Positions 4,776 to 60,774 of a stretch of 64,000 nucleotides of DNA are shown here, in pieces. Numbering within the stretch: the stretch's first letter is position 1; the number at the start of each line of letters is the position of its first letter. Location: assembly GCA_023480735.1 (NCBI GenBank), contig JAMCXB010000067.1, positions 1 to 64,000 on the forward strand, read 5' to 3'. The stretch comes from Bacteroidota bacterium. Lineage in GTDB: Bacteria; Bacteroidota; Ignavibacteria; Kryptoniales; JAKASW01. Below the pieces are notes generated by a model, which did not search any database, was not told the DNA's origin, and was given only the letters and a program-made list of their open reading frames with translations. The position numbers were made by a program, and so were the translations under genes.

Positions 4776-4891
4776 GTAATGCCTCACTGAAAGGGTTATT
4801 TCTCTCGCAAAGGCGACAAGAACGCAAAGAAATGTTGACGAGCGGTTCGCTTTGCGAGCGGCTTGGCGAGAAACTATAAGTGAGGGGTTAC
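4776..4891 (-). mobile_element. MITE-like element, copy 1 (116 bp)
   Basis: Non-coding element flanked by the exact 8-bp direct repeat AAGCTGTG at 4768-4775 and 4892-4899, read as a target duplication. Termini are imperfect inverted repeats (GTAATGCCTCACTGA at one end, and GTAAcCCCTCACTTa read from the other). It lies reversed relative to copies 2 and 3. It occupies the 398-base gap between the AtuA-family gene and the GlmU-like gene; apart from this element and the hairpin at 4958-4988 I see nothing else there. Confidence 0.82.
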
Positions 4892-4957
4892 AAGCTGTGC
4901 TGTCTCTCGTATAGCGACAGAGGAAGCGGGGTGACTAAGTTGACAGCACCTTGAAGG

Positions 4958-4988
4958 CTCAGGCCTGCGATATATCTGCAGGCCTGAG
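4958..4988. terminator. Hairpin downstream of the GlmU-like gene
   Basis: Perfect 11-bp inverted repeat CTCAGGCCTGC / GCAGGCCTGAG with a 9-base loop, located about 95 bases past the stop of the minus-strand GlmU-like gene. It could end that transcript, but there is no T-run after the stem on the minus strand, so intrinsic termination is uncertain. Confidence 0.4.
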
Positions 4989-5081
4989 ATTAGTTGTTTA
5001 TCGGAAGCCCTTTAGGAGGTTCATGTATGAGAGAATACCGGTTGTTACATTAACTCCGTAACAAACCAATAGCCGCGTTCG

Positions 5082-6356
5082 TCAAGCTTCCTCTTTAATA
5101 CCTGCAGCGGTTCTCTCTTCTTCGGTCATTTCGAAGACTTTATTGAAGAGCCTTTCGGCCGCTTCGCTGAGCGTCATCTTTCGACGTGCCATGACCCTTC
5201 GGGCAACTTCTAACGCCTTCGGAATCCTGTAGGTTGTCAGTCCTTCGAGACCACCGCCCCACGCAAACGCAGGAATGTATTTCGGCGGCAATCCGGCACC
5301 GTAGACGTTGCAGCAGACGCTGATGACTGTTCCGGTATTGAACATGGAGTTGATTCCGCATTTCGAATGGTCGCCCATCGTCAAGCCGACAAACTGAGAG
5401 CCGGTGTCTACCAGCTTGCCGTCGTTGTACACCTTGACATTGCCGTAATCGTTCTTCAAGTCGCTGTTGTTGGAATCCGCGCCGATGTTTACCCATTCTC
5501 CCAAATAAGCATGCCCAATGAAACCTTCGTGCTGCTTATTCGAATAAGCATGGATGATCGACTCTTCAACCTCACCGCCGACTTTGCATGTTTCGCCGAT
5601 CGTCGTGTTCTCGTAGATCTTTGCAGCGACCTTGACGATGCTGTTCTCGCCAATGAAGGCAGGGCCTTCTATGACGGCATTCGGCATTATCTTGGCGTTA
5701 TTCGAAATGTAGATTGGACCTCCCTCGGCATCGAGGACTACTCCAGGCTTTACCTTTGCCCCTTCAGCTATGTGTATCTGGGAGGGATTTATAAGATGGA
5801 CGCCCTCATAAACCTTGCCCAGAATCTGAGGCTTGCCGTTAGTTAAGATTGCGAAGTCAGCGACGAGCTGAGAGCCGTTGTGGTGAACCAGCTCCCAAGG
5901 ATACTTGATCATCTTCACGTCGGAGACTTCTTCTTTCTTCGCCCCGGCGAAATCTTCTGATGTAACGAGCTTCCCGCCAAGGGACTTCTTCATCGCATCG
6001 AGATTCTTTCCCGACACCCAGGCAGCGATTATCGAATCGCCGCTGACGTAAAGAACGTCGCTGCCCTTGTGTTCGAATTTCTTGACAAGTGTCTCGTCAA
6101 AAAGAAGCCTGCCGTTGATAAACAACACGCGCTGAGCATCGTTTGGAATTTCGTTCACCGGAGAATGAGGATATTTCTCCTTAACGACATCCTTCAAATA
6201 CTCGCGAGTATGCAAAACAACGACGTCACCAGAATATGAGCGGGCAATCTTTTCTCTTAACGAAGTAATACCACACTTCAAATCGTACACCGGCCGGAAA
6301 TGAACAAGAGGCATCAACTTCTTGTAGAACTCATCTTCAAATATGCATATATGCAT
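5082..6356 (-). CDS. Alternative GlmU-like sugar nucleotidyltransferase/acetyltransferase
   Basis: A 424-residue protein matching the Bacteroidota-type putative sugar nucleotidyltransferase that replaces canonical GlmU. The N-terminal part (1 to about 190) is the divergent transferase domain, without the usual LxAGxGTRM loop. From about 190 it is a left-handed beta-helix of hexapeptide repeats (PGVVLDAEGGPIYIS, NAVIEGPAFIGENS and others), then a segment rich in glycine and asparagine around GHAYLGEWVNIGADSNNSD. The likely product is UDP-N-acetylglucosamine for peptidoglycan and lipid A. AAGGAAT precedes the ATG. It lies 62 bases downstream of nagB on the same strand, linking UDP-GlcNAc synthesis and glucosamine-6-phosphate turnover. 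The exact sugar substrate is inferred. Confidence 0.78.
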   Translation of the reverse strand: MHICIFEDEFYKKLMPLVHFRPVYDLKCGITSLREKIARSYSGDVVVLHTREYLKDVVKEKYPHSPVNEIPNDAQRVLFINGRLLFDETLVKKFEHKGSDVLYVSGDSIIAAWVSGKNLDAMKKSLGGKLVTSEDFAGAKKEEVSDVKMIKYPWELVHHNGSQLVADFAILTNGKPQILGKVYEGVHLINPSQIHIAEGAKVKPGVVLDAEGGPIYISNNAKIMPNAVIEGPAFIGENSIVKVAAKIYENTTIGETCKVGGEVEESIIHAYSNKQHEGFIGHAYLGEWVNIGADSNNSDLKNDYGNVKVYNDGKLVDTGSQFVGLTMGDHSKCGINSMFNTGTVISVCCNVYGAGLPPKYIPAFAWGGGLEGLTTYRIPKALEVARRVMARRKMTLSEAAERLFNKVFEMTEEERTAAGIKEEA

Positions 6357-6418
6357 AGAATTCCTTAGTCCTGTTGTTTAGAGGTTATACACTGTTGTTA
6401 CTTCGTCTTGTCCGTTCC

Positions 6419-7201
6419 TCATCCGTAAGTAACAAACTCAGCGGCCAATTTAGTTGCTGCCTTCTTGTCAGTCAGGATAATTGCCTTTCTGTGGAGCTGG
6501 AGAGCAGATGCCGGGCACATCGCTGTGATCGGACCTTCAACTGCAGCCTTTACTGCATCGGCCTTTCCTTCGCCGTTAGCGAGCAAGAGAAGTTCTTTCG
6601 CTTCCATGATTGTCCCAATTCCCATAGTGATGGCGTAGCGAGGAACATCATTCGCACTCTTGAAGAATCTCGCATTGTCTTTCACTGTCTTTTCGGTAAG
6701 TGTCTTTATTCTGGTGCGCGAGCCCAGAGAGGAACCCGGCTCGTTAAAAGCGATGTGACCATTCCCGCCTATGCCTAATACCTGAATATCCAGACCACCG
6801 TACCTCAGCATTTCATTCTCATACCAGGTGCAGAATTGCTGAATCTTAGGATCCGTTTCGAATGAAGATATCTTCAAATCCCCATACATCCCTTGCGGAA
6901 CATGAACGTGTGATCGTTCAATGTTGATATGCTTGAAGAGGTTTTCCCACATGAAGTAGTGATAGCTCTGGTCATGTTCGGGAGGGAGGCCGACGTATTC
7001 GTCAAGATTGAAGGTGGTGACTTTTGAGAAGTCGAGACCTTCGTTCTTGTGCAGCTTGATTAATTCCTTGTATAATCCGAGGGGGGTACTCCCGGTTGCA
7101 AGGCCTAGGACAAGATTGGGTTTGCGTCTGATTCGGGAGGCAATGATCTCAGCGCCCTTCTTACTCATCGCGTCATAGTCTTCATGCACAACGACTAGCA
7201 T
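6419..7201 (-). CDS. nagB: Glucosamine-6-phosphate deaminase
   Basis: Converts glucosamine-6-phosphate to fructose-6-phosphate and ammonia. At 260 residues it has the family's normal length. Motifs: GLATGSTPLGLY (33-44, phosphate loop), TFNLDEYVG (63-71, catalytic Asp) and GIGGNGHIAFNEPGS (143-157) with His149 and Glu154. The Asn before Gly-His, where the E. coli enzyme has Asp, also occurs in other bacterial NagB proteins and is not a defect. It is divergent from the fusion gene at 7549 and shares with it an intergenic region carrying a palindromic operator candidate. With nagA nearby, it serves amino-sugar recycling. Confidence 0.94.
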   Translation of the reverse strand: MLVVVHEDYDAMSKKGAEIIASRIRRKPNLVLGLATGSTPLGLYKELIKLHKNEGLDFSKVTTFNLDEYVGLPPEHDQSYHYFMWENLFKHINIERSHVHVPQGMYGDLKISSFETDPKIQQFCTWYENEMLRYGGLDIQVLGIGGNGHIAFNEPGSSLGSRTRIKTLTEKTVKDNARFFKSANDVPRYAITMGIGTIMEAKELLLLANGEGKADAVKAAVEGPITAMCPASALQLHRKAIILTDKKAATKLAAEFVTYG

Positions 7202-7310
7202 GTTCTTGATCTCCTTTGGTTTTGGTTAGTTAATGTAGCCTGATCTGTGGTGAATTATCTATTCAACAAAGCGGCATAACAACATTGGAACCAATTTCCG
7301 AGAACTGCGA

Positions 7311-7341
7311 ATATTAGTTGGTTGTGTAAACCAACTAATAT
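7311..7341. promoter_or_regulatory. Perfect palindromic operator candidate between divergent nagB genes
   Basis: Two 13-base arms, ATATTAGTTGGTT and AACCAACTAATAT, separated by GTGTA. The core TTAGTT..GTT / AAC..AACTAA resembles the operators of ROK-family repressors such as Bacillus XylR (TTAGTTTGTTT half-site, from memory). The site is 110 bases upstream of nagB and 208 bases upstream of the NagB-like/PIG-L fusion, so one repressor could control both. An AT-rich stretch (TATATTATAA) adjoins it. The rest of the 347-base gap 7202-7548 shows nothing recognisable. Confidence 0.55.
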
Positions 7342-7548
7342 ATATTATAAAAGTCATTCGTCGTTGTCAAGGCTATTCTTACCAAGCCCCCACTGGCACG
7401 ATACAATGCGCCCGGGAATTCTCTTCGACGGGCAGCGCAAAAGGGTTCTTTAAGCAAACAAACTTGAAACATAGCACTACGGGAGCTTAATTTAATTCCG
7501 TGGTGCAGATAATGTTCTCCAGATAAATCACAAGGAACGATCTAGAAA

Positions 7549-9891
7549 ATGAAAACAACTACGACAAAAGTCGAACAACTCGCGATAGAAAGGTCAGGAC
7601 AAAAACTTCAGTACGTGCCGTCCGAAAAGGTCGGAGTAATTGTAGTGGATAACTTCCCTTCCCTCGGCAAATTGACGGCTTTACGATTTCTTGAATGGGT
7701 ACAGCATAATCCGGGCGGAGTCGTTTCACTGCCGACCGGCAAGACTCCGGAACACTTCATAAGGTGGGTCACCCATTTTGTGGACCAGTGGAACAGTTCA
7801 TCGCTCAGGAAAGAACTTGAAGAAGGAGGAATCACCTCGACCGAAAAGCCCGATATCGGTAGCCTTCACTTTGTTCAGATCGATGAATTCTATCCTATTC
7901 ATCCGAAACAGCAAAATAGTTTTTATTACTATGTCAACAAGTACTATATGCACGGGTTTGGGTTTGACCGCTCAAAGGCACTTCTGATAGATGACAGCAA
8001 GGTCGGACTTCCGGCCGGCAAGCGGATCACAGACATTTGGCCCGAGCAAACGGTCGATCTCTCCCTTCGCTACAGGCAGCCAAAAACCCGCGAGGAGAGA
8101 ATGCAGAAGTCCGTCCTGGAAGACATCGACCAGTGGTGTGCGGAGTACGAGGAACAGATAAGGTCGCTGGGCGGAATCGGATTCTTCCTCGGTGGAATAG
8201 GACCCGACGGTCACATCGGTTTCAATGTCAGTGGATCGGACTTGAACTCCACTACCCGTTTGACCGCCACGAATTATGAAACGCAGGCAGTTGCGGCAAC
8301 CGATCTGGGCGGTATTGAGGTTTCCCGAAATCGTCTCGTTATCACCATCGGACTCGGCACTATTACCTACAACCGCTCTTGTACCGCGATAATAATGGCC
8401 GCCGGTGAAGCGAAGGCGGAGGTTGTGGGAGACGCTATTCAGAAGAAGATGCACGTGCGCTATCCGGGAACAGTCCTGCAGTATCTCCCAAACGCGCGGT
8501 TCTACCTGACCAAGGGAGCTGCTAAGCTCTTGTCTGAGCGCAATTACGAGATCCTTGCAGGTCAAGAGGTAGTCCCCGATGAGGAAACCGAGAGGATCGT
8601 AATCGATTTGGCGGTCGCAAAGAGAAAACGGGTGCGTGAATTAACGGTAAAAGATTTCGAGAGCGAGAGGTTCAGCGAGTTGCTGCTGACCAAGCGGAAA
8701 GAGACTTGGCAGCAACTTGTCGACGAAGTCGACAAGAAGCTGACCGAGAAGGTTGAACTTGGGCGGACATCTCACTCAAATGAAGTCTTTCTCCACACGG
8801 AGCCGCATCATGACGACCTTATGCTTGGGTATCTTCCTTACATTGTTCGCCATGCCCGGGATGCCTCGAACAGTCACACTTTCCTGACTCTTACGAGCGG
8901 GTTCAACGCAGTTACCAACTCTTACATGCTGGATCTCCTGGACAACCTGAAAAGATTTCTGGACGACGGTTCGTTCAGTAAGCTGATCAACGAGGGGTAT
9001 TTTAATCCGAATGATGAGACTAAAAGGAACCGGGACGTCTGGCAATATCTGGATGGCGTTGCTGAGAACAACCCGAGGACGAGAGCTGAAGGCGAGGCAA
9101 GAAGACTGCTTCGAAATCTGGTCTTTCTCTTCGAAGACGATAATGTTCAGAACCTGAAAAACAGAATCGATGAGCTCGCCAATTATTTCAACACCCAGTA
9201 TCCTGGCAAGAAGGACCTGCCGCACATTCAGAGACTCAAGGGAATGATGCGGGAATGGGAAGCGGACTGCCTGTGGGGATACTTCGGGTTCAATGGGCAA
9301 TCCATTCTTCACGCGCGGCTGGGATTTTACAAAGGCGACATCTTCACCGAGGAGCCGAAAGTCGAGCGAGACGTCCTCCCTGTCCTGAATGTGTTGAGAA
9401 AAGTGAAACCGACCATTGTCGGAGTGGCTCTGGATCCTGAGGCAAGCGGTCCTGACACCCATTACAAGGTTTTGCAGGTAATGTCCGAGGCATTGAAGAT
9501 GTATGAGAGTGAATCCGGTCGTTCGGACATAAAAGTCATCGGTTATCGAAATATCTGGTACCGGTTTCATCCTGCAGAGGCGAATGTGTTTATTCCCGTC
9601 TCGCTTAATATGTTTGCCATTTTGCAGAATTCCTTCAACAATGCCTTCGGTTCCCAGCGGGGAGCATCCTTCCCTAGCTATGAGCACGACGGGCCTTTTT
9701 CTGAATTGGCACAGAGAATTCAGGTGAGGCAGTATCAGAAGGTAAAGACCTGCCTCGGGAGGCAGTACTTCAACGAGCATCCGAGCCCGCTGATACGCGC
9801 TACCAGAGGGTTGGTATTTGCCAAACTTATGAACCTGCAGGAGTTCTACGACACTTGTCTTGCACTTAGGAAATCGACGGAAGATCTGTAA
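7549..9891 (+). CDS. NagB-like isomerase/deaminase domain fused to a PIG-L-like deacetylase domain
   Basis: A 780-residue two-domain protein of a type known in Bacteroidota and annotated there as glucosamine-6-phosphate deaminase. Residues about 30-345 are NagB-like: phosphate loop LPTGKTP (61-67), DEFYP (112-116) and GIGPDGHIGFN (216-226). The position of the catalytic Glu of NagB is Val227 (FNVSGS), so standard deaminase chemistry is doubtful. Residues about 410-690 resemble PIG-L/LmbE zinc deacetylases: PHHDD (419-423) supplies metal ligands and a later THYK may supply another. Such a pair could deacetylate and then isomerise an N-acetylamino sugar (inference). ATG at 7549 follows AAGGAACGA. 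Confidence 0.8.
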   Translation: MKTTTTKVEQLAIERSGQKLQYVPSEKVGVIVVDNFPSLGKLTALRFLEWVQHNPGGVVSLPTGKTPEHFIRWVTHFVDQWNSSSLRKELEEGGITSTEKPDIGSLHFVQIDEFYPIHPKQQNSFYYYVNKYYMHGFGFDRSKALLIDDSKVGLPAGKRITDIWPEQTVDLSLRYRQPKTREERMQKSVLEDIDQWCAEYEEQIRSLGGIGFFLGGIGPDGHIGFNVSGSDLNSTTRLTATNYETQAVAATDLGGIEVSRNRLVITIGLGTITYNRSCTAIIMAAGEAKAEVVGDAIQKKMHVRYPGTVLQYLPNARFYLTKGAAKLLSERNYEILAGQEVVPDEETERIVIDLAVAKRKRVRELTVKDFESERFSELLLTKRKETWQQLVDEVDKKLTEKVELGRTSHSNEVFLHTEPHHDDLMLGYLPYIVRHARDASNSHTFLTLTSGFNAVTNSYMLDLLDNLKRFLDDGSFSKLINEGYFNPNDETKRNRDVWQYLDGVAENNPRTRAEGEARRLLRNLVFLFEDDNVQNLKNRIDELANYFNTQYPGKKDLPHIQRLKGMMREWEADCLWGYFGFNGQSILHARLGFYKGDIFTEEPKVERDVLPVLNVLRKVKPTIVGVALDPEASGPDTHYKVLQVMSEALKMYESESGRSDIKVIGYRNIWYRFHPAEANVFIPVSLNMFAILQNSFNNAFGSQRGASFPSYEHDGPFSELAQRIQVRQYQKVKTCLGRQYFNEHPSPLIRATRGLVFAKLMNLQEFYDTCLALRKSTEDL

Positions 9892-9902
9892 GAGCACCAG
9901 AT

Positions 9903-9927
9903 GCGGCGGTGCCAATAGTGCCGCCGC
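9903..9927. terminator. GC-rich hairpin between convergent genes
   Basis: GCGGCGG and CCGCCGC form a 7-bp stem around an 11-base loop, 11 bases after the stop of the NagB/PIG-L gene and just before the stop of nagA on the other strand. TTTCTCTATTT follows on the plus strand, compatible with an intrinsic terminator for the fusion gene. Confidence 0.55.
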
Positions 9928-9932
9928 TTTCT

Positions 9933-11117
9933 CTATTTCGCCATCTGCGGGATAGGAAATCTTTTGTACTCGATTTGTCCGGCTCTCATTGTCATGTCTA
10001 CATTGAAATCCCCATCAAGCACAACGATGTCTGCCCTTTTGTTAGCCTCAATACTCCCGGTCTCTTTGTCTATTCCGAGCGACCGTGCCGCGTTCAGTGA
10101 AACCATGCGCGACGCTTCGGGCAGGTCCACGCCCACTTCGCGGACAATCAGCCTCAGGGCTTTCTCCAGCACTAATGTGCTTCCAGCAAGCGTTCCATTC
10201 TCGAGGTGTACAATGCCGTTACGGACCGATACCTTTTCACCTGCAGAATAATACTCGCCGTCGCCTACCTCTGTTGCCCGTATAGAATCGGTTATTAGCA
10301 TAATGTGGTCGGCACCTTTGACTTTCGTCGCCAACTTGATGATTTTCGGATGTACGTGCGCCCCATCTGCAATCAGTTGAACATCGAGCTTGTCGGATAA
10401 GAGCGATTCCGCCAGAATCCCGACTTCGCGATGATGGAGCGGAGGCATGCTGTTGAAAACGTGAGTCACCTGCTTCGCGCCCAGGTTGATTGCACGCTGT
10501 GCCGTTTCTCCGTCGGCGGAAGAGTGACCGAGTGCAATCACGACACCGTTCCTTATCGCGTCCTCCATGACGGAAATAATACCCGTCAGTTCAGGCGCCA
10601 CAGTCATAAGACGTACGTATCCCTGTCCGGCAACGAATACTTCGCGCCACTTGTCAATTTCAGGGGTCTCGAAATATTCTCCCCTGTTCCCACCCCTCAT
10701 CGCCCGGTTGAGATAAGGACCCTCCAGGTGAATTCCGTAAATATTGGAATGCTCCCGATTTTTGCCGCAATATCCCGCTAAACGGTGCACCGCCGGAATC
10801 AGAAGGGAATGAGACAGAGGAGAGAGAGTTGCAAGCAGAGTCGTCACGCCATGCGCATAATAGTGGCGGGATAATACGGAACAGGTGTCGGGCTTTTCGT
10901 CTGTGAAATCGTAACCTAGTGCGCCGTGAGTATGCACGTCGATGAAGCCCGGCATCAGGATCTTACCGGCGCAATTTATGACTTCATATTCCTTGTCTAT
11001 CTTGTTCGCCGATAATTGGGAGACACTCTTGATCTTCTTCTCCTCAACGGCAACTACTCCGCTATCTATGACCGAATGTGGAGTAACCACCTCTCCGTCA
11101 ACGAAAACGTATTTCAT
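9933..11117 (-). CDS. nagA: N-acetylglucosamine-6-phosphate deacetylase
   Basis: Hydrolyses N-acetylglucosamine-6-phosphate to glucosamine-6-phosphate and acetate, feeding NagB. It is an amidohydrolase-fold enzyme of 394 residues. PGFIDVHTHG (56-65) carries the first metal site and HLEGPY (130-135) the metal-binding Glu132. LGHSSAD and THVFNSM, further along, hold metal histidines, and LITDSI has the catalytic Asp. It is convergent with the fusion gene. Together with nagB and the GlmU-like gene it forms a split amino-sugar cluster; it probably has its own promoter or is read from upstream with rpe, 75 bases away on the same strand. Confidence 0.93.
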   Translation of the reverse strand: MKYVFVDGEVVTPHSVIDSGVVAVEEKKIKSVSQLSANKIDKEYEVINCAGKILMPGFIDVHTHGALGYDFTDEKPDTCSVLSRHYYAHGVTTLLATLSPLSHSLLIPAVHRLAGYCGKNREHSNIYGIHLEGPYLNRAMRGGNRGEYFETPEIDKWREVFVAGQGYVRLMTVAPELTGIISVMEDAIRNGVVIALGHSSADGETAQRAINLGAKQVTHVFNSMPPLHHREVGILAESLLSDKLDVQLIADGAHVHPKIIKLATKVKGADHIMLITDSIRATEVGDGEYYSAGEKVSVRNGIVHLENGTLAGSTLVLEKALRLIVREVGVDLPEASRMVSLNAARSLGIDKETGSIEANKRADIVVLDGDFNVDMTMRAGQIEYKRFPIPQMAK

Positions 11118-11192
11118 TTGGGATTGATTCTCATTTCAGTTCTGATTGCCTGATGATGCATTCCGGGGAGATTACTCACACGGGAGTGGCCG

Positions 11193-11840
11193 TCACCGGG
11201 CGGCTTTTATTTCCCTCACAGTGGCCGTAATATCCGTCGATTTGAATATTGAAGTTCCTGCCACCAAAACGTCTGTCCCTGCATGTACAAGTCCTGCCGC
11301 ATTCTCTGGGCCGACGCCACCGTCCACCTCGACGAAAATCTTCTTTCCGGCAGGAATGAGCTTCTTCACTTCCGAAATCTTCCTGTAGGCGCTGTCGATA
11401 AACTCCTGTCCGCCGAATCCCGGGTTTACAGACATAACCAGTATAAGATCGACATCATAGACAATTTCCGATAAAAGGCCCACTGGCGTGGAAGGATTGA
11501 TAGCGACCCCAGCTTTTGCACCGAGTTGTTTTATCTTGTTGACAGTCCGATTAAGGTGAATCACAGCTTCATAGTGGACCGTGATGAAGTCGGCGCCGGC
11601 CGCTGCAAAACGCTCGATGTATGAGTCAGGATTTTCGATCATCAGATGCGCGTCAAGCACAAGATCGGTCATCTTGTCTACGGCCGATACAAGCAGAGGA
11701 CCGAAAGTAAGGTTAGGAACAAAGTGACCATCCATGATATCCAGGTGAATCCATTCCGCGCCGCCTTTCTCTACCAACCGGATTTGCTCTTCCAGCTTTG
11801 TAAAATCTGCAGAAAGGATTGATGGGGCTACAATTGCCAT
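11193..11840 (-). CDS. rpe: Ribulose-phosphate 3-epimerase
   Basis: Interconverts ribulose-5-phosphate and xylulose-5-phosphate in the pentose phosphate pathway. A 215-residue TIM barrel with APSILSADF (5-13), HLDIMDGHFVPN (about 32-43, metal and catalytic Asp), VMSVNPGFGGQ and VDGG near the C-terminus. It overlaps the stop of the PASTA-protein gene by one base (TAATG), so the two are co-translated. Confidence 0.95.
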   Translation of the reverse strand: MAIVAPSILSADFTKLEEQIRLVEKGGAEWIHLDIMDGHFVPNLTFGPLLVSAVDKMTDLVLDAHLMIENPDSYIERFAAAGADFITVHYEAVIHLNRTVNKIKQLGAKAGVAINPSTPVGLLSEIVYDVDLILVMSVNPGFGGQEFIDSAYRKISEVKKLIPAGKKIFVEVDGGVGPENAAGLVHAGTDVLVAGTSIFKSTDITATVREIKAAR

Positions 11841-12622
11841 TACTGTTCAGGGCCCTCTTGCTGGTTCTCTATGGACGAAACGAACAGGTTAATCTTTGTA
11901 CCCTTTGGCACGATTTCTTGTGAACGTGGGTATTGCTCGATTACTGTATTTGGAACCAGTCTTCTGCTCGGTTGGAAGGTGATATCACCAAGGAGAAGTC
12001 CGCCGTTCAGGATCGCCCTTTGTGCATCCGCGAGAGGCAGGCCTACCAGAGTCGGCACAGATACTTCGCCGACAGTTGGTGTTCCTGCAGACACGACGAT
12101 AGATATTGCGGAACCTGTGGGGGCCAACGAATTGGCAGGCAACGATTGCGACATTACAACGTTCTGAGGAAAATTGCTCGAAGAATCAAAGGTCACTTTC
12201 CCGAGGATGAAGCCTGCGCGTTCCAGCATGAACTGCGCCTCACGTTGAGAATGGCCGCTTAGGTTGGGAACCGTGACCTTCTCAACTCCACCGCTCAGGA
12301 TGAAGTAAATCCGCCTTCCGTGTTTTACAACCGATTCCCCCTCTGGGTTTTGCGACAGCACGGTATTTGGCGCCAACTTGCTTGATTTATTTCCGCCGAC
12401 TTCAAATTGTAAACCAAGCGTGTCAAGGATTTCTCTCGCTTTTGCTGCCTGTTTTCCGACAAGGTTGGGTACGGTCACCGTACCACCGTCGTTGACATAC
12501 CACGGCATTACAACCCAGTTCATGAGCGAAAAGAACACAATAAACAATAGTACCCACAAATATAATTTGCGTGCAAGATTTGACCACAGCAGATGCATGA
12601 AGAAGCTTCTCTTTGTATTCAT
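11840..12622 (-). CDS. Membrane-anchored protein with three PASTA domains
   Basis: A 260-residue protein with a short basic N-terminus, one membrane helix (about 18-38) and three tandem PASTA repeats outside, near 45-110, 113-180 and 185-250. Each opens with a V-P-L-V/S-G pattern such as VPNLVGKQA. PASTA domains bind peptidoglycan fragments or beta-lactams in serine/threonine kinases and penicillin-binding proteins. Here no kinase or transpeptidase domain is attached. A role as a cell-wall sensor or scaffold is inferred. It is co-transcribed with rpe. Confidence 0.85.
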   Translation of the reverse strand: MNTKRSFFMHLLWSNLARKLYLWVLLFIVFFSLMNWVVMPWYVNDGGTVTVPNLVGKQAAKAREILDTLGLQFEVGGNKSSKLAPNTVLSQNPEGESVVKHGRRIYFILSGGVEKVTVPNLSGHSQREAQFMLERAGFILGKVTFDSSSNFPQNVVMSQSLPANSLAPTGSAISIVVSAGTPTVGEVSVPTLVGLPLADAQRAILNGGLLLGDITFQPSRRLVPNTVIEQYPRSQEIVPKGTKINLFVSSIENQQEGPEQ

Positions 12623-12682
12623 TTGATGGTTAGAATCTATCCATTACATCATTGATTTTCAAGATTTCATTGTTTGGGGCGC

Positions 12683-12794
12683 GTAACCCCTCACTTATGG
12701 TTTCTCGCCAAGCCGCAAAGCGAACCGCTCATCAACATTTCTTTGCGTTCTTGGCGCCTTTGCGAGAGAAATAACCCTTTCAGTGAGGCATTAC
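12683..12794 (+). mobile_element. MITE-like element, copy 2 (112 bp)
   Basis: Same family as 4776-4891, opposite orientation. Flanked by the exact 8-bp direct repeat TGGGGCGC at 12675-12682 and 12795-12802. It sits 61 bases upstream of the PASTA gene, in the 327-base gap 12623-12949, in which I see no other feature. A small minus-strand open frame runs through it but is not credible as a gene. Confidence 0.83.
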
Positions 12795-12949
12795 TGGGGC
12801 GCCGTTTATTCTTCATTCCCGCAATGTCGGAAACCCGTATGTCTATCGAATGATTAGTATGTCCCATCGTCACGCACAGGATCGTGTCGCACCGGGTTTG
12901 GAGGTCTTATCAAAACATTACACGCCATAACTCCAGGTTCAGGATGTTA

Positions 12950-15893: not shown

Positions 15894-15947
15894 CCTTTCG
15901 CGAAATGGAACCCGTTTTTCAAGCTTCGAAAATCAGTCAAACTTACA

Positions 15948-15969
15948 CCCCAAGCGGCAACCGCTGGGG
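15948..15969. terminator. Hairpin between the PorV-like gene and buk
   Basis: CCCCAAGCGG and CCGCTGGGG pair with one bulged A around a CAA loop. It lies between two minus-strand genes, 36 bases past the stop of the PorV-like gene. No T-run follows on the minus strand, so it may be a processing or rho-independent-like hairpin only. Confidence 0.35.
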
Positions 15970-51400: not shown

Positions 51401-51487
51401 TTATAGCGGTTTAACTCCCATTGTTATGAAATTTAATCAAATCGTGAGGGGAATGCAATCGATGGAAGCAGGATTATGTCCCAAAAT

Positions 51488-52357: not shown

Positions 52358-52435
52358 GTCTCTCTAGGTAATCGAAGGATGAAAGAATTCCTTCCAAGGT
52401 CGACCTTTCACTATGCACGGTTGCCCAAGAGTAAT

Positions 52436-53407
52436 TCAACTCATCCTCTCGACGACAAACTCTGTGAGCTTCAGCAGAGACGATTTCGCTTCGGATTCAG
52501 GAATTTCTTCCAGTTCATATCTTGCCTTCGACGCGAACTCCTCCGCCTTCTTGCGAGCCCTATCAATTCCGCCATAGTTTTGTGCAAATTCAATTACTTC
52601 TGAAATCTTCGAGCCTGCCTTCCCATTCTTCAGGAGCCTCAGGATCGATCTTGATGTCCGTTTCGGAGCGTCCGCGAATGCATATATTAACGGAAGAGTA
52701 ACCTTTCTCTCACGAATGTCGCTTCCGATGGGTTTCCCTAAAGTAGCCGTCTTTCCCTCGTAGTCAAGCACATCATCTCGTATCTGGAAGGCCATCCCGA
52801 GATATTCACCGAAGGCTTTCATGCGAAGGACGATACTCTCATCCCTGGTTGCGCTGGTTGCACCCAGCTCGCAGCAAGTGGAAATCAACGACGCCGTCTT
52901 GTCCGAGATTATTCTGAAGTAAGTCTCTTCATCCATGTCGAGTTGCTTCGCTTTCTGAATCTGAAGGAGCTCCCCTTCGCTCATACGCTTAACTGCGATC
53001 GAACTCAATTTTAGGAACTGGAATTCGTCATTAAATAGCGACAGAAGCAATCCTCTCGACAGCAAATAGTCTCCCATCAGAACAGCCACTTTATTTTTCC
53101 AAGTCGCACTTATAGAGGCAATCCCTCGTCTTGTATCGGCTCCGTCGACTACATCGTCGTGTATTAGAGTGGCGGTGTGCAGCAGCTCAACCAAGGTTGC
53201 CGCATGGTAAGTGCTGGGAGTGATTCCCCCGCCTGCTTCCGCAGACAACAAGACGAGAATAGGCCGAATTTTCTTGCCTTTCTGATGCAGTACATAACGG
53301 GCAATCGTATCGACTATACCGACATTTGAACGAATGGCCGTCTTAAATTCTCTATTGAAAGTCCTAATCTCCTCCCTAACGGGAAAGATTATTTCATTTA
53401 AGTTCAA
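52436..53407 (-). CDS. Polyprenyl synthetase (octaprenyl/heptaprenyl diphosphate synthase type)
   Basis: Elongates isoprenyl diphosphates, giving the side chain of quinones. A 323-residue trans-prenyltransferase with the first Asp-rich motif DDVVDGADTRRG (84-95), a second QIRDDVLDYEG, and KTASLISTCCELGA between them. The chain length depends on residues before the first motif and cannot be set from here. It is downstream of tatC with 17 bases between. Confidence 0.9.
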   Translation of the reverse strand: MNLNEIIFPVREEIRTFNREFKTAIRSNVGIVDTIARYVLHQKGKKIRPILVLLSAEAGGGITPSTYHAATLVELLHTATLIHDDVVDGADTRRGIASISATWKNKVAVLMGDYLLSRGLLLSLFNDEFQFLKLSSIAVKRMSEGELLQIQKAKQLDMDEETYFRIISDKTASLISTCCELGATSATRDESIVLRMKAFGEYLGMAFQIRDDVLDYEGKTATLGKPIGSDIRERKVTLPLIYAFADAPKRTSRSILRLLKNGKAGSKISEVIEFAQNYGGIDRARKKAEEFASKARYELEEIPESEAKSSLLKLTEFVVERMS

Positions 53408-53424
53408 AACTCACCTGTAAAGAA

Positions 53425-54204
53425 TTATGCAGTGACTTTTTCTTTCTTTTGTTTATTCGCTCGCGTCACTTGAACGACCAGTATCGAAATTTCATACAGA
53501 AGGTATAATGGGACGGCAACCATTATCTGGCTGGCGACATCAGGTGGCGTGATCGCTGCGGCTACCAGAAGTACTACGATCACGGCATGCCGCCTGTACT
53601 TTCGCATAAATTGCGGGCCCAAGATGCCGAGTTTTGCCAGGAAATAAGAAAGCATGGGAAGTTCAAAAACGACTCCGCAAGCCAGTATTATTCCGACGAT
53701 AAAACTGAAGTATGATTGGACATCAATTATGTTCTCAATGTTGGTCGTCCCGAAGCCGGAGAAAAACGACAGGGCGTTCGGTATTAGAAAGAAGTAACCG
53801 AAAGAGCCGCCAACAAGAAAGAATAGTGTCGAGAAGAAGACGATTGACGTGACGTATTTCCGCTCATTCGGGTACAGTGCCGGCTGAACAAACTTCCAGA
53901 AATGATACAGCGTGTTGGGGAGACTTAAGATCAATCCGGCAATGAAGACAATCTCCATATAGAGCATCAGCTGGCCATAGGGTCTCAAGTTCTGAACTCT
54001 CAAAGGAGGTCTGCTATGTAAGGCAGGAGCCAGAAGGAACTTGTTTACAATTGCATCCGAGAAGAAGGCGCATATTGCAGTAGCTACTGCAATGCCCACG
54101 AGCGACCAGATGAGGCGCGAACGAAGCTCCTCAAGATGATCCCAGAACGACATCTCCCTCTGAGGCTCGTCTGGAGACGCTATTTCTTCTACGTGCTCAG
54201 TCAT
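53425..54204 (-). CDS. tatC: Sec-independent protein translocase TatC
   Basis: Core of the twin-arginine export system. At 259 residues it has six membrane helices. MSFWDHLEELRSRLIWSLVG (about 19-38, written in part as FWDHLEELRSRL) is the conserved N-terminus that binds signal peptides; RKYRRHAVIVVLLVAAAITPPD follows near the end. It overlaps the glyA stop by one base. tatA/B are not in the window. Confidence 0.95.
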   Translation of the reverse strand: MTEHVEEIASPDEPQREMSFWDHLEELRSRLIWSLVGIAVATAICAFFSDAIVNKFLLAPALHSRPPLRVQNLRPYGQLMLYMEIVFIAGLILSLPNTLYHFWKFVQPALYPNERKYVTSIVFFSTLFFLVGGSFGYFFLIPNALSFFSGFGTTNIENIIDVQSYFSFIVGIILACGVVFELPMLSYFLAKLGILGPQFMRKYRRHAVIVVLLVAAAITPPDVASQIMVAVPLYLLYEISILVVQVTRANKQKKEKVTA

Positions 54205-55526
54205 CAGCCGCGAGCGGCAAACTCCTTAGCAAAATCGTATAGCGGGAATTTGCCGCATAAGTTTTTCACATCCTCTCTGACGTCTCTCAACTTCTGTTCA
54301 TCCGAGACATTTGAAATAACCCGATCGATTAAATCAGCGACATCCTCCATTTCGGATTCTCTGAAACCACGAGTCGTCACGGCAGGAGTTCCTACCCTTA
54401 TGCCGCTCGTGATCATCGGTGATTTGTCGTCAAAAGGAACCATGTTCTTATTAACAGTAATCCCGGCTTTCTCGAGAGCCTTCTCGGCGTCTTTGCCGGT
54501 AACATTCTTGTTCCTCAGATCAACCAGCATCAGATGGTTGTCAGTTCCGCCTGAGACGAGTTGATATCCTCTCTTTGTCAACTCTTCAGAGAGTCGCTTC
54601 GCGTTGGCTACAACCTGCTGCGTGTACACTCCGAAAGTATCGCTTAACGCCTCGCCAAAGGCAACTGCTTTGGCCGCAATCACATGCATCAACGGACCAC
54701 CCTGAATCCCCGGCATAACGTTAGAGTCCACTATCTCAGACATCATCTTTAGTCTGCCGGATTTCGGAGCCGTTTGACCAAACGGGTTCTCGTAGTCTTT
54801 CCCCATCAGAATCAGCCCTCCCCGGGGTCCCCTAAGTGTCTTGTGGGTTGTCGATGTGACAATGTGGCAGTAAGGGAGGGGATCGTTCAGGAGTTTTGTT
54901 GCTATGAGTCCTGCAGGGTGCGCAATATCTGCCATCAGGAAGGCGCCGACCTTATCGGCGATTTGCCGAAAAGCCTTGAAATCGATGTCGCGTGGATATG
55001 CACTGGCACCGACGACAATCATCTTCGGCTTATGTTCGGTTGCTAACCGCTCAACTTCATCAAAGTCTATTCTTCCAGTTTCTCTTTTTACGCCGTAGGC
55101 GACTACATTGAACAACTTGCCGCTGAAATTTACCGGTGAGCCATGTGTCAGGTGTCCACCGTGCGCCAGGTTCATCCCGAGAATCGTGTCACCTGGCTTT
55201 ATGAATGAGAAGTAAGCGGCCATATTTGCCTGACTGCCTGCGTGCGGCTGAACGTTGGCGTATTCTGCACCGAACAGCTTCTTAACCCTCTCCCTGGCGA
55301 TGTTCTCCGCTACGTCTACGAATTCACATCCGCCGTAATAGCGCTTGCCCGGATATCCTTCAGCATACTTGTTTGTCAATACCGTACCCAGAGCCGCGAG
55401 TACGGGCTTGCTCACGAAATTCTCCGATGCAATTAATTCTATAGTATTATTCTGGCGGGAGATTTCCCTGGCGATGGCATCAAAGACTTCACCATCGGCA
55501 CTTCTGAGAACTTCCAGAGTATCCAT
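54204..55526 (-). CDS. glyA: Serine hydroxymethyltransferase
   Basis: Converts serine and tetrahydrofolate to glycine and methylene-tetrahydrofolate. About 440 residues. ATG 55526 is chosen because AAAGAGG lies eight bases before it; a GTG nine bases earlier is the outer limit of the frame. [11 protein letters not shown] (about 30-40), the PLP-binding lysine in [14 protein letters not shown], and [15 protein letters not shown] are typical. It ends in a one-base overlap with tatC. Confidence 0.95.
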
Positions 55527-55556
55527 GATGTGCACCTCTTTCTAGTAAAGATTGAC

Positions 55557-55997
55557 CTAGCAACTGCTGAGGCTGTGAATTTTCTCGACACGGCGCAAAT
55601 GCCGCCCGCCCTCAAACGGCGTCGAAAGCCAGACTCGTATCATCTTTTCGGCGGTATCCCAGTCTGTCAACCGTTCCCCAATGCTGAGCACGTTGGCATC
55701 GTTGTGCCTGCGGGAAAGCTCAGCCATCTCGACCGTCGTGCAGAGAGCAGAGCGAACATTCTCTACCTTATTTGCCACGATGTCCATGCCTATTCCGCTC
55801 CCGCAGACCAGTATGCCTCTGTCACATTCGCCGGTGCCGACAGCTTTAGCGGCAGCATAGGCAAAATCCGGATAATCACACGACGAATTGCTGTATGTGC
55901 CAAAGTCTTTATATTCCAATCCCAGTTCGTCGCCGAGAAGCGTCTTAATTCTTTCCTTGTAGTGAAAACCTGCATGATCCGACGCGAGTGCGAGCAT
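55557..55997 (-). CDS. rpiB: Ribose 5-phosphate isomerase B
   Basis: Interconverts ribose-5-phosphate and ribulose-5-phosphate. About 146 residues with ATG 55997, chosen because AGGAG lies seven bases upstream; ATG 56003 overlaps the barrel stop as ATGA and is the alternative. ALASDHAGF (about 3-11) and the catalytic Cys in LVCGSGIGMDI (about 62-72) are intact, and RHNDANVL follows. It lies directly after the barrel gene. Confidence 0.92.
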   Translation of the reverse strand: MLALASDHAGFHYKERIKTLLGDELGLEYKDFGTYSNSSCDYPDFAYAAAKAVGTGECDRGILVCGSGIGMDIVANKVENVRSALCTTVEMAELSRRHNDANVLSIGERLTDWDTAEKMIRVWLSTPFEGGRHLRRVEKIHSLSSC

Positions 55998-55999
55998 TC

Positions 56000-57276
56000 T
56001 CATTCTCCTACGGGGCGTATGAACCACACTTCGCCCAAAGTGACCGAGACATAAATCCTAAAGATCCTCTCCTGGAGAGGAAAATCATTCGACAACCCTC
56101 GCAGCCCATATTGGGCTGATATATTTACTGTAGACGAATAACTCATCGGAAGCTCAATGCCAGCAGTCAAAAAGAACTCATCTACTTGCTTATTCTGTCC
56201 GGATTTTGTCGGTAGAACAAACTGCGTTTTCTCATAGTAGAATCCTGCACGCAGAATTTGCTTGTCGTACAGCGCACCAATTGCCCTGCCGCGCAAGTAC
56301 TGAACTCCGCCACCGACAAACAGGACATCTTTGAATGTCCCAGGTGCCGTGAAGGAATCATAGTAACGAGAGAGCTGCTGCGTACGAACGTCTAAGACCG
56401 CAGATAAATCCTCGCTAAAACTCTTTGATATACCTATCCCGTATTCCGGCGGAATATACCCTGAGGCTAACGAAGTAAACGCCGTATCAAGCCCGTCGGA
56501 ATAAACATTCGACAGTTGATCGTTCCCGTTGAGTTGATAAGGAAGCTTGTAATAGCCCGCAATATCGAAACCGTGCAGGAAATCCACCTTCACGAGATCG
56601 TCCAAGTGACTCAAGATCACGCCAAAAGTTTCACTTGAGCCGTGGAGGTAAAGACTGTTATCCGAAAAGGTGTTTTGGTAACTGGTGTTCGAAAAGTTGA
56701 CCTGACCCGTCGTCTCTGTCCTTCCGAACGCATAATTGAACGTTGCTCCAATGCTTATCTCCTTGAATGGAGAAAAACTTGTTCCGACAAAGCCTTCTCC
56801 GAGTCCACCGGAGCCCGTGTTAAGATAAGTTGCAGATGGAATTGTAGATGTGGAGCTGATGATGGACTTAATTTGGTCTTGATAGCATATTGATAGGATG
56901 TAAGGGGTGTGAATCCCAACGCCAATGAAATGCCCAGATCACGATCAATAGGAACCGCGAAAATTCCTCCCCCGAAATTACCGTTGACAAGATAAGAAGA
57001 TTCATTGCTCAAGTTATCGTGCGAGTTTACACCTGAAAAGTCGTAAAGAGCACTGAACTGAACATTCTGAAGAGCCGACCACGTAGCCGGGTTCAGTCGG
57101 TTAAGGGAGCCGTTGTTCAGAAGCGCTAATCCCGCGTTTCCCATTCCAACCGAGTATCCACCGGCAAAACTCGTAAACGCACCGGCTCCCTTGGCGGACA
57201 GTGGGGAACCGTCACCGGCAAACGCGCCGTTTGCTGCGCACAAGAAAGCGGCACAAAATATCAGACTCTTCATCAT
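56000..57276 (-). CDS. Outer membrane beta-barrel protein, reading frame broken
   Basis: Predicted barrel with a signal peptide (1 to about 20, ending AFAGDG), then a conserved MGNAGLALLNNGSLNRLNPATW (about 44-65 in part), as in FCB-group FadL- or PorV-like barrels. The first frame (57276) stops at 56755. The continuation with TIPSATYLNTGSGGLGEGF and many barrel strands is in the -1 frame to 56000. A missing A in the AAA run at 56872-56874 would join them (about 425 residues). It overlaps the lipoprotein gene upstream by four bases. Substrate unknown. Confidence 0.72.
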
Positions 57277-58451
57277 TTTTTCACCGCGGGAGTATAAGTT
57301 ACTATTAGCCTTGGCTTGAGGGAATCAGGTGCACTACCGTCATAGAGGAATCGAGAATCCACATTCTCCAGCTCGTTGTACTCGGCAATGAGGAATCCGT
57401 AGTTCTTATTGTTCAACATGTGCTGAACGATTGTGGTTACGTCAAAAGTATATTCATTATTTGAAACCAAAGCCACCGCCGAACCTCTCGTGCTGATCTG
57501 ATTTGTCGACGGGTCTGAGAGATAATACGCAATCAGCGTGTCTATGATACCGGTGTAAGAATAGGGCGCCTCTGCAGTAGAATCGAAATGCAGAGTAAGC
57601 AGGGCGCTGTTGACGATAGAATAATTCGGAATCTTACCCAGGTCGAAAATCAGGTTTTCCCTCAAACCTGTGCCTGACTGGACGATTTTGTACGGCCCCG
57701 GCGGAGCTACGGCAGCCAGCGTTGTATGCGCCACTGAAGTGGAATAATCCAGCGCGATATTGGAAGTATCCATGACACCGTTCAGCATATAAACTACCCG
57801 GCAAACAGGTGCAGAGGTAGAAATCGACGCCAACTGGGAATATACCGACAATACCCCGTTCACGCTCGTCGGTTTTATCACGAAACCGTTGTTTTTTATG
57901 GCCGTATCCTGGGTTGCGTTCGCCCAAAGTCTTACGACCGACGTATCCAACCCAATCATGACTGTCGAATCTGTTATCGTCTGCGATGATACGATGTTCG
58001 AGGCACCATGGCTCATCGCGGCTATGCTATCCCACGTAACAGTCGTGTAGTTCCACGAGCTATCCATCGAGTAACCGTTAAACATAAGTTTCATGGCGTT
58101 ATTCCCCGAAGGATCCAACGTATAGGGGCCTCGCGTCATAATAATAGTCGCCGACAATATCGACTCGGCACCGTAGACAGGATTGAAAGCGGAGAATCGC
58201 ATCAAGAGGTCCGCTTCGGTCCACGGAACCATTCCGAGTGATAGTATCTCGCTCGAGCCTGTAGCGAGACCGTTGTTTACCTGCGAACTTGTTGTCTTGA
58301 GTGAGTCAAGAACTGAATCCAGATATTGGGGAACCAGCGTGCTGTCATAGGCGACAAGCCATGAGCCGGTCTGGTTCACCCTGTTGTTGCAGCCCAGTAA
58401 CACCAGCGCCAGCAGTCCGGCCACAATGGAGCCTTCAATTATTCGCTTCAA
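57273..58451 (-). CDS. DNRLRE-type lipoprotein
   Basis: A 392-residue lipoprotein: signal sequence with lipobox LVLLGC (about 16-21, Cys21). The body is rich in Ser, Thr and Asn, with two repeats of the DNRLRE-like architecture: LLMRFSAFNPVYGAESILSATIIM near 85 and NLIFDLGKIPNYSIVNSALLTL near 280, and a final DSLKPRLIVTYTP that is a usual ending of such domains. It is probably at the cell surface or periplasmic face and acts with the barrel encoded next. Function unknown. Confidence 0.78.
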   Translation of the reverse strand: MKRIIEGSIVAGLLALVLLGCNNRVNQTGSWLVAYDSTLVPQYLDSVLDSLKTTSSQVNNGLATGSSEILSLGMVPWTEADLLMRFSAFNPVYGAESILSATIIMTRGPYTLDPSGNNAMKLMFNGYSMDSSWNYTTVTWDSIAAMSHGASNIVSSQTITDSTVMIGLDTSVVRLWANATQDTAIKNNGFVIKPTSVNGVLSVYSQLASISTSAPVCRVVYMLNGVMDTSNIALDYSTSVAHTTLAAVAPPGPYKIVQSGTGLRENLIFDLGKIPNYSIVNSALLTLHFDSTAEAPYSYTGIIDTLIAYYLSDPSTNQISTRGSAVALVSNNEYTFDVTTIVQHMLNNKNYGFLIAEYNELENVDSRFLYDGSAPDSLKPRLIVTYTPAVKK

Positions 58452-59004
58452 TTTTCTTTCTTACAAAGTTTGTGACAGTATCGTGAAGATTCTTAGCAAG
58501 ATAATCTATTTTGATTCCGCCGTCAATGCACCGATGGTAGTCGGACTCCCCATATCCGGTCAAAACCAGGGACGTGAAAGCGCCGGCGTTTTCACCGCAT
58601 TTCACATCGCTCCATTTGTCACCGACAACAAATGATTCCGAAAGATCTATATCGAACTGATCCTTTGCGCGGAGAAGCATCCCAATATCGGGTTTCCTGC
58701 AAGTGCACTGGACACCGGCGGAATTCGGATAGTGGGGGCAGTAATATACTGCATCAACCTTTGCCCCTCTCTGCGCCAGCATCTCTACAAGACGGGCGTT
58801 GACAGCATTCACTTGTGCCGCCGTCATGATGCCTCTTGCTACGCCGGATTGATTCGATATTATAACCACTTTCAGCCCGAGGCCGTTGGCTATTGCTATA
58901 GCCTCGGGGGAATTTTCGATGAACTCAAGCTGATCAGGGTTGCTTAGGTAGTCTTTGTCGATGTTGATCGTCCCGTCACGATCGATAAATATTGCCCGGG
59001 TCAC
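58435..59004 (-). CDS. gmhB: D-glycero-D-manno-heptose 1,7-bisphosphate 7-phosphatase
   Basis: Removes the 7-phosphate in ADP-heptose synthesis for the LPS core. A 189-residue HAD-IIIA protein: FIDRDGTINID (6-16) with Asp8 and Asp10, ISNQSGVARG (about 50-59) and the zinc loop CPHYPN...CTCRKPDIGM (about 93-115). It overlaps glgA by four bases and the lipoprotein gene by 17. Histidinol-phosphatase relatives exist, but the zinc loop fits GmhB. It supplies heptose for GT9 enzymes such as those at 17-19 kb (inference). Confidence 0.88.
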   Translation of the reverse strand: MTRAIFIDRDGTINIDKDYLSNPDQLEFIENSPEAIAIANGLGLKVVIISNQSGVARGIMTAAQVNAVNARLVEMLAQRGAKVDAVYYCPHYPNSAGVQCTCRKPDIGMLLRAKDQFDIDLSESFVVGDKWSDVKCGENAGAFTSLVLTGYGESDYHRCIDGGIKIDYLAKNLHDTVTNFVRKKIEANN

Positions 59005-60485
59005 TTGTCAAGGATCTTGGTATACAGCTCGGCATACTGTCTCGCGGAGTTTGTCCAGGAAAAATCCTCTGCCATAGCGTTCCGCATGATCTTCTGCCAG
59101 TTTTTCTGATCGCCAAAAAACGTCAATGCTCTTGAGAGCGCCTTGACCACTTCATCCGGTTTGTACTCGTCGAAGAAGAAGCCGGTCCCGGTTCCCTTCT
59201 GCGGATTTACTTCCTTCACGGTGTCGGCCAGGCCGCCCGTCCGTCTGACAACCGGTATTGTCCCGTATTTGAGACTATATAATTGATTCAAGCCGCAGGG
59301 TTCAAACTTGCTCGGCATAAGAAAAATATCCGATGCGCCTTCAATCAGGTGGGAGAGCTCATCGTCATAGGCAAGCTGCAGAACAAACTTGTCAGGATAC
59401 TTCTTTGCCAGAGCTTCGAGTTTAGCATGATATTGTTTCTCGCCCGTCCCGAGGAGTATGACCTGAACGTTCATTTTCATGACCTCGGGAAATGCATCGA
59501 TAACCAGATCTATTCCCTTTTGTTCAACCAGGCGGGATACCATGCCTATCAGCGGAGTTTGAGAATCGAACTTTTTATTGAATCTCTTCAGCAGATATTT
59601 CTTGTTCTCAACCTTTGCGTCCAGCGTTTTAACGCTATATTTGAAGGGTATGTATTGATCCGTGTCAGGGTTCCAAATCGTATAGTCGATGCCGTTAACG
59701 ATTCCCGTGAAGAATTTCTTCCTCTTCTTAAGGACGCCATCCATGCCGCAGCCGTATTCGTCGCTCTCAGAAATTTCCTTTGCATAAGTCTGGCTGACAG
59801 TAGTTATGTAATCGGAATACACGAGCCCGGCTTTCAGGAAGCTGAACTTATCGAAGAATTCAGCCCCTTCCTGACTGAACACGTCTGCCGGAAGTCCGGT
59901 TTTCGCAAACATCTCCTTTGGGAAATTACCCTGATACGCCACATTGTGAATTGTGAAGACGGTCCTGATGTTCTTGAAGAATGGGTCGGCACCGTAAATC
60001 TTCTTCAGATATGCGGGGACGAGCCCTGTTTGCCAGTCATTACAATGGATTATGTGCGGCGCCCATCCAAGCCGCTTCAGGATTTCGAAGATGCCGCGGG
60101 AATAGAAAATAAATCTCTCGTCGTTGTCCGAATAGTCCTTCTTAGTCTTCGGATCCTGATAGATGCCTGCTCTGCCGAAAAATTCCGAACTGTCGATGAA
60201 GTATATCTGGACCTTCGTCCGTTCTCCGATGAGGAAAGAGGATTTTACATTCAGTTTCGCATCCTTTTTCCCAATCGGGATATCAATGTCTTTGAGGCGG
60301 ATAATCTCATGAATGCGGAATTTCCGCTCGTTGACAAATCCATAACGGGGGATTGCAAGCCGGACATCATTACCGATTTCTTTTAACGCCTGCGGCAATG
60401 CGCTGGCAACATCGGCCAATCCGCCAGTTTTCGCAAAGGGAAAGACTTCCGAGGATAAGAATAAAACATTGAGGGGCTGAGTCAT
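59001..60485 (-). CDS. glgA: Glycogen synthase (ADP-glucose type)
   Basis: Adds glucose from ADP-glucose to glycogen. A 494-residue GT5 enzyme. LFLSSEVFPFAKTGGLADV (8-26) contains the ADP-glucose loop KTGGL; HNVAYQGNFP (about 184-193), GIVNGIDYTIWNP (about 262-274) and SKFEPCGLNQLYSLKYG (about 392-408) follow. It heads the glgA-gmhB-lipoprotein-barrel-rpiB-glyA-tatC run. No branching enzyme or pyrophosphorylase is nearby. Confidence 0.94.
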   Translation of the reverse strand: MTQPLNVLFLSSEVFPFAKTGGLADVASALPQALKEIGNDVRLAIPRYGFVNERKFRIHEIIRLKDIDIPIGKKDAKLNVKSSFLIGERTKVQIYFIDSSEFFGRAGIYQDPKTKKDYSDNDERFIFYSRGIFEILKRLGWAPHIIHCNDWQTGLVPAYLKKIYGADPFFKNIRTVFTIHNVAYQGNFPKEMFAKTGLPADVFSQEGAEFFDKFSFLKAGLVYSDYITTVSQTYAKEISESDEYGCGMDGVLKKRKKFFTGIVNGIDYTIWNPDTDQYIPFKYSVKTLDAKVENKKYLLKRFNKKFDSQTPLIGMVSRLVEQKGIDLVIDAFPEVMKMNVQVILLGTGEKQYHAKLEALAKKYPDKFVLQLAYDDELSHLIEGASDIFLMPSKFEPCGLNQLYSLKYGTIPVVRRTGGLADTVKEVNPQKGTGTGFFFDEYKPDEVVKALSRALTFFGDQKNWQKIMRNAMAEDFSWTNSARQYAELYTKILDK

Positions 60486-60654
60486 TTCATACCATGATTT
60501 GTTTTCCTAAAATATCAAAAAAAAGCCTTACAATCAATTACATTTACCGCATCCGTAGACAATCCGCTCCCGGCCAGCCGTAAGCATTCAAGGGAAATAG
60601 TGGAGATGGTACGGTTAGCCCCCTCCCCGGCTCCCGGAGCCCGACAAAAACGCC

Positions 60655-60774
60655 GTAACCCCACACTTATGGTTTCTCGCCAAGCCGCGAGCTCGCAAGG
60701 CGAACCGCTCGTCAACATTTCTTTGCGTTCTTGGCGCCTTTGCGAGAGAAATAACCCTTTCAGTGAGGCATTAC
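60655..60774 (+). mobile_element. MITE-like element, copy 3 (120 bp)
   Basis: Third member of the family at 4776 and 12683, same orientation as copy 2. Flanked by the exact 8-bp direct repeat AAAACGCC at 60647-60654 and 60775-60782. It differs from copy 2 mainly by an insertion in the centre; the last 60 or so bases are identical. It lies between divergent glgA and MBL genes, in the 363-base gap 60486-60848; the AT-rich sequence 60810-60848 may hold the MBL promoter. Confidence 0.84.

Follow-up and report, generated by a model that had tools for sequence, protein, structure and literature searches.

A recently active MITE family with mostly 8-bp target-site duplications, most likely mobilised in trans by an IS66-family transposase

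Three short elements in a 64,000-nucleotide stretch of DNA (the window) are copies of a genuine mobile MITE, present in at least 53 full copies in the genome from which the window comes (G000; a draft of 2,809,464 bases in 72 contigs, about 90% complete). Because its target-site duplications are perfect, we regard the family as recently active. The element is non-autonomous and presumably mobilised in trans, and we consider it probable that the transposase belongs to the IS66 family, perhaps to its single-ORF ISBst12 group. Such a transposase, supplied in trans, would recognise the imperfect inverted ends of the MITE, with their core GTAAYSCCTCACT, and would move the element, leaving a duplication of 8 bp and at times 9 bp.

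Direct reading of the sequence placed all three elements where the original prediction had put them (Table 1). Each is bordered on both sides by a perfect 8-bp repeat that differs from those of the other two, and the bodies, predicted to be nearly identical, are 94–98% alike in their common blocks. Main ORFs flank each of the three copies without reaching into it, in agreement with the proposed intergenic position, and the copies' own frames are too short to encode a transposase. The window had been said to contain no transposase; accordingly, none was found among the Pfam matches of its 58 main ORFs, which were scanned out of 109 listed ORFs of at least 100 aa, many of them overlapping.

Table 1. 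The MITE copies of the window with their flanking duplications and terminal repeats, and sibling elements with similar ends.
Feature	Position or genome	Strand	Length	Description
MITE copy 1	4776..4891	-	116 bp	5' end at 4891; direct read
MITE copy 2	12683..12794	+	112 bp	direct read
MITE copy 3	60655..60774	+	120 bp	direct read
Left target duplication of copy 1	4768..4775			AAGCTGTG
Right target duplication of copy 1	4892..4899			AAGCTGTG
Left target duplication of copy 2	12675..12682			TGGGGCGC
Right target duplication of copy 2	12795..12802			TGGGGCGC
Left target duplication of copy 3	60647..60654			AAAACGCC
Right target duplication of copy 3	60775..60782			AAAACGCC
5' terminal repeat of copy 2	12683..12700	+		GTAACCCCTCACTTATGG; 15/18 to IS66 right end GTAACCGCTCAGTTACGG
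3' terminal repeat of copy 2	12777..12794	-		GTAATGCCTCACTGAAAG, read inward; 11/18 to GTAACCGCTCAGTTACGG
Sibling L100	G007		165 bp	perfect 9-bp duplication
Sibling L185	G009		239 bp	duplication 8/9
Sibling L189	G009		208 bp	perfect 9-bp duplication; second end matches 8/13
Sibling L040	G000		143 bp	duplication 7/8

The genome-wide copies were collected by a genome search, a terminal-inverted-repeat (TIR) pattern and inspection of fetched stretches. There are thus at least 53 copies, the genome search having scored 40 of its 66 first-look candidates, with 40 matches listed, and the TIR pattern having listed 100 of 116 places; two partial or divergent loci, L040 and L041, were excluded from the count. 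The copies are 104–125 bp long, chiefly 112, 116, 120 or 124 bp, and differ in length mostly at one spot after CCAAGC; their mean pairwise identity is 97%. The terminal inverted repeats start with GTAA; of the 53 copies, 41 have exactly the 5' end GTAACCCCWCACT and 49 exactly the 3' end AGTGAGGCATTAC. An open frame, at most 208 codons long, runs through 50 of the copies, which is no proof of an intergenic position and fits the earlier remark that such repeats are annotated as spurious small ORFs.

The original prediction turned on whether copies elsewhere in the genome also carry target duplications, and most of them do. Perfect duplications flank 42 of the 53 copies (36 of 8 bp and 6 of 9 bp), and six further copies have duplications with a single mismatch (five of 8 bp, one of 9 bp). 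The automatic rule made no call for the remaining five (L004, L029, L038, L037 and L026); on visual inspection, reading the altered 5' end of L004 as GTAACGACCCC would give this copy a perfect 8-bp repeat, but it was kept out of the count. No two of the 36 perfect 8-mers are alike. When the left flank of each copy was paired with the right flank of another, only 1 of 2,756 combinations gave a perfect repeat, which rules out chance as the origin of the duplications. A sister species, Bacteroidetes bacterium WY2.bin60 (G007), carries copies of the same kind: among 17 of its 18 listed copies, 13 have duplications of 8 bp, two of 9 bp and one of 7 bp, while L063 has none.

The window and G007 are collinear, with an identity of about 77–82%, and at all three window sites G007 lacks the element. 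The unaligned gaps at the three sites measure 309, 263 and 230 bases in the window and 180, 138 and 103 bases in G007. The resulting differences of 129, 125 and 127 are near the 124, 120 and 128 expected for the element plus 8 bp, so that the predicted relation between occupied and empty sites held for the absence of the element and approximately for its size. Scored with a single copy of the 8-mer and then with two, the G007 sites gave 109/108, 138/134 and 115/118, the third site alone scoring slightly higher with two copies, and the flanks are too diverged for these scores to decide.

Two MITE insertions are common to both genomes: L021 (G000:C54:2623) corresponds to L071 (G007:C3:1856), and L008 (G000:C70:62952) to L072 (G007:C26:238749). 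The surrounding tracts, of 3.0 and 2.3 kb, have identities of 94% and 91%, compared with about 80% for the window. From these identities, the tracts may reflect either recent exchange between the species or mixed bins.

The duplications and empty sites also bear on a different reading, in which the repeat is a structured intergenic sequence (REP- or RNA-like, a terminator or a nucleoid site) that owes its copies to recombination or selection instead of transposition. The window copies do fold better as RNA than shuffled sequences (z = -3.6, -3.8 and -2.9), and the single copy in the related genome G009 and one in G000 precede the same gene by nearly equal distances, although this flank is only 70–73% identical. 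However, folding is what inverted ends give anyway, the window contains no Rfam match at the gathering threshold, and perfect duplications involving 36 different 8-mers, together with three sites lacking the element in G007, refute this reading as a full account. We regard it as very improbable; a secondary role as a structured repeat is possible beside transposition.

An intergenic CGCCAAG/CTTTGCG repeat occurs in many bacteria and has core words in common with the MITE. The suggestion that this wider repeat is itself a mobile element found no support in a small sample. A scan of IMG/VR for the core gave at least 120 stretches, and 80 loci with 81 matches were examined, of which three passed the repeat filter, one apparently coding and two on one contig. 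None of these three combined terminal repeats with an 8–9-bp duplication. The two clear examples, on a single contig (L297), are bounded by AACCGCAAAG...CTTTGCGGTT and have neither GTAA ends nor 8-bp duplications. A literature search on the core words returned nothing useful.

IS66 elements are described with an 8-bp duplication, and GTAA ends combined with 8 bp constitute the IS66 pattern. We compared the MITE ends with the right end of an IS66 from the same genus, GTAACCGCTCAGTTACGG. The 5' ends of copies 1 and 3 match it at 14 of 18 positions, and the three MITE 5' ends are the best three of all 380 GTAA 18-mers in the window, the next best matching at 13. The 3' end, with its 11 matches, is at background level, equalled by at least ten unrelated window sites; it thus leaves the exact parent unproved. 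A further likeness lies in the neighbourhood of the ends, where the rare motif GGGTSTGCG occurs within about 10 bp of 6 of the 53 MITEs in G000, near 2 of the 16 distinct IS66 ends that 15 copies provided and near 1 of 17 G007 MITE copies. The background is two occurrences in 157,754 bases, most of which lie more than 200 bp from any copy. The six G000 cases are not fully independent, since several adjoin copies of one repeat.

A third repeat, of about 118 bp, has an end GGGTSTGCGACAAA and a body with CACATAGGCACATAGG. It lies at about 147–264 of L026 and in the flanks of L005, L008, L010, L014, L016, L070, L072 and L076. Its edge is a site of MITE insertion, and in four cases the distance between the MITE and the GGGTSTGCG motif is exactly 5 bp.

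Remains of the IS66 itself were found in three genomes of the genus. A profile search of 12 genus genomes with PF03050 (IS66) gave two pieces, both in SKS5.bin54 (G008), and no match in G000 or G007. The end GTAACCGCTCAGTTACGG adjoins these pieces. A 106-aa piece from G008, P0001, matches PF03050 with an E value of 3.1e-7 (30.6 bits, cut-off 23.1) and NCBIfam transpos_IS66 with an E value of 1e-13 (51 bits, where the cut-off for whole proteins is 180). A search of 379 genomes of the class, at least 90% complete, with the 77-aa tail of the G008 transposase found it only in G008 (seven places), G007 (three) and G000 (one, with a stop), and GTAACCGCTCAGTTACGG adjoins all 11 places. The 37-aa G007 tail alone has no Pfam or NCBIfam match; it is tied to IS66 by its 72% identity to the G008 tail. 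Plasmids gave no match to the tail. Viral contigs gave 24 pattern matches to it, none of them confirmed, no match to the IS66 end, and one match to the MITE 3' end in a stretch from which the rest of the element is absent.

All three G007 pieces lie at contig ends, with 126–127 bp between the contig end and that of the IS66. For two of the three right ends, the adjoining 8-mer was searched for directly before GTAA. Among the 11 places found, one is the opposite end of a G007 IS66: CGCGCAAG followed by GTAACCGCTCAGTTACAGG, 125 bp from a contig end. This left end, GTAACCGCTCAGTTACAG, is preceded by CGCGCAAG, the same 8-mer that follows one of the right ends. The presence of CGCGCAAG at both ends, across two contigs, indicates that the IS66 of this genus makes an 8-bp duplication. 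A full-length IS66 of this type was not recovered, only end pieces having been assembled, and the breaks 125–127 bp inside the element are probably the reason. We infer that the IS66 copies were collapsed by short-read assembly and that assembly could bridge the MITE because it is short.

An IS66 transposase probably does the moving, and a narrower, compatible form of this reading makes the resident IS66, with GTAACCGCTCAGTTAC ends, the current driver, tolerating the divergent MITE ends. Its pieces are present in G000 and G007, its duplication has the same main length as that of the MITE, and the two have the GGGTSTGCG neighbour motif in common. However, per 18 bases the MITE 5' end has three mismatches and its 3' end seven, and the evidence for a transposase in G000 is the tail relic with a stop, with no PF03050 match in this approximately 90% complete draft. 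We consider this narrower form a reasonable possibility, if somewhat short of even; a close relative with GTAAYSCCTCACT ends is a candidate that may take its place.

Some observations count against IS66 in general. The distributions of IS66 and MITE do not fully coincide, since the IS66 pieces of G008 are not accompanied by any MITE match and the one MITE of G009 by any match to the IS66 tail. In addition, 7 of the 53 duplications are of 9 bp (six perfect, one with a mismatch). Transposases of the IS256, IS1595 and IS4 types make 8–9-bp duplications, and the MITE could descend from a parent in such a family, lost or unassembled in the draft. The 9-bp duplications and the poor match of the 3' end to IS66 agree with this alternative, as does the fact that some copies of at least one further multicopy element are found where contigs end. 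We nevertheless judge it unlikely, as the combination of GTAA ends with 8 bp follows the IS66 pattern, also seen in ISDge4, and an IS66 whose end matches at 15 of 18 positions has left pieces in G007 and G008 and a relic in G000.

Two candidates for a parent in G000 were rejected. An inward-facing pair of ends at C3:45679-47504 encloses ORFs that read as infB, rbfA and truB, and was attributed to chance. The sequence GTAATACCTCACT at the end of contig C52 was dismissed as a parent end because the repeat at that place, which begins only about 17 bases further inward, belongs to another multicopy element. This second multicopy element, with an end near TTAGCCCAAGTTCGACACTT, occupies five places in G000 (C52:1-117, within L026; C62:16-131; C7:62009-62123; C32:45330-45444; C45:30459-30575), at least three of them at contig ends, and has strong matches in G007, G008, G009 and G002. 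Weak inward-facing matches of 20 bp lie about 2 kb apart in G008 (C131 and C29), and others 172–588 bp apart in G009 and G008. Judging by this arrangement, it could be an insertion sequence with its own MITEs.

Among 20 genomes of the order, including G000, full copies of the MITE were found in G000, G007 (18) and G009 (one), and a match in G010 was confined to 32 bases of the core. The TIR pattern, run over 395 genomes of the phylum in a sample without G007, matched only G000. Over named genomes it returned 48 stretches: 14 are MITE copies in WY2.bin60, eight in SKS5.bin54 and two in MAS4.bin38 are IS66-type ends, two lie at contig ends of Nitrospiraceae SURF_23, and 22 are others. Both MAS4.bin38 ends (L157, L159) lie 126–127 bp, and both SURF_23 ends (L155, L175), also of IS66 type, about 99 bp from contig ends, as if a multicopy insertion sequence had broken the assembly. 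Paired ends with a duplication were seen in this set only at L180 (Deltaproteobacteria bacterium RBG_16_49_23; match 1717–1735, - strand), a 153-bp candidate that has the ends GTAACCCCTCAGTTATGG and GTAATCCCTCAGTTTC and is flanked by 8-bp repeats differing at one base. From its sequence, L180 is possibly an IS66-type MITE outside Bacteroidetes.

Similar ends also enclose other bodies. A test of eight loci gave four sibling elements that look clean (Table 1) and three weaker candidates, L182 (duplication 6/8), L194 (7/8) and the G009 copy L193 (no duplication); L187 showed nothing. The end pattern GTAAYSCCTYACT has 13 matches in 11 genus genomes compared with nine for the reversed control, so many of its matches outside G009 and G007 are due to chance and carry little weight singly. 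The G009 copy of the MITE combines the common body with sibling-type ends. The gene downstream of this copy (L060, G009:C60:23041) is also the one downstream of L030 (G000:C17:71659), and its distance from the MITE is similar in the two species; L030 has a perfect 9-bp duplication, and L060 has none and different ends.

We conjecture that bodies are exchanged among these elements and that their ends follow the transposase available locally. In a broader proposal, which we put forward as doubtful, IS66-type ends would have been wrapped repeatedly around unrelated, pre-existing intergenic palindromes in this genus, making immobile repeats transposable; the palindromes concerned would be the CGCCAAG/CTTTGCG repeat and a G009 palindrome with CCACGACC...GGTCGTGG. 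The many chance matches of the end pattern GTAAYSCCTYACT outside G009 and G007 count against this proposal. If true, such capture would be one route by which palindromes of this kind are scattered through the genomes of environmental bacteria.

What is new in this system is the likely IS66 driver; the kind of element is itself familiar. Literature searches limited to open-licence PMC papers turned up no account of a MITE of IS66 type, which does not imply its absence from print, and the text of PMC10969869 has no occurrence of IS66. With ends that point to IS66, the family offers an abundant and tractable bacterial MITE. It may also explain why drafts from short reads contain a MITE without its driver, the MITE being shorter and the IS66 longer than the assembly overlap.

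ISDge4 is a mobile IS66 element of the ISBst12 group with the end GTAACTGCTCAGCA and an 8-bp duplication (PMC12898284). It resembles the IS66 and the MITE of this genus in its GTAA-starting ends and duplication length; the IS66 end GTAACCGCTCAG, known from end pieces only, matches GTAACTGCTCAG of ISDge4 at 11 of 12 positions. Unlike ISBst12-group elements, the MITE has no transposase, has its own end variant GTAAYSCCTCACT and shows a minority of 9-bp duplications. Among bacterial MITEs, MITEPsy1 of Pseudomonas syringae is 100 nt long, with a 4-nt duplication and a probable IS5-type parent, and MITECca01 of Cardinium has a parent in the IS982 family (PMC3189936, PMC9769881). All three are small and geneless, with inverted ends and presumed mobilisation in trans, and MITEPsy1 likewise duplicates its target, whereas the MITE described here is set apart by IS66-type ends and duplications of mostly 8 bp.
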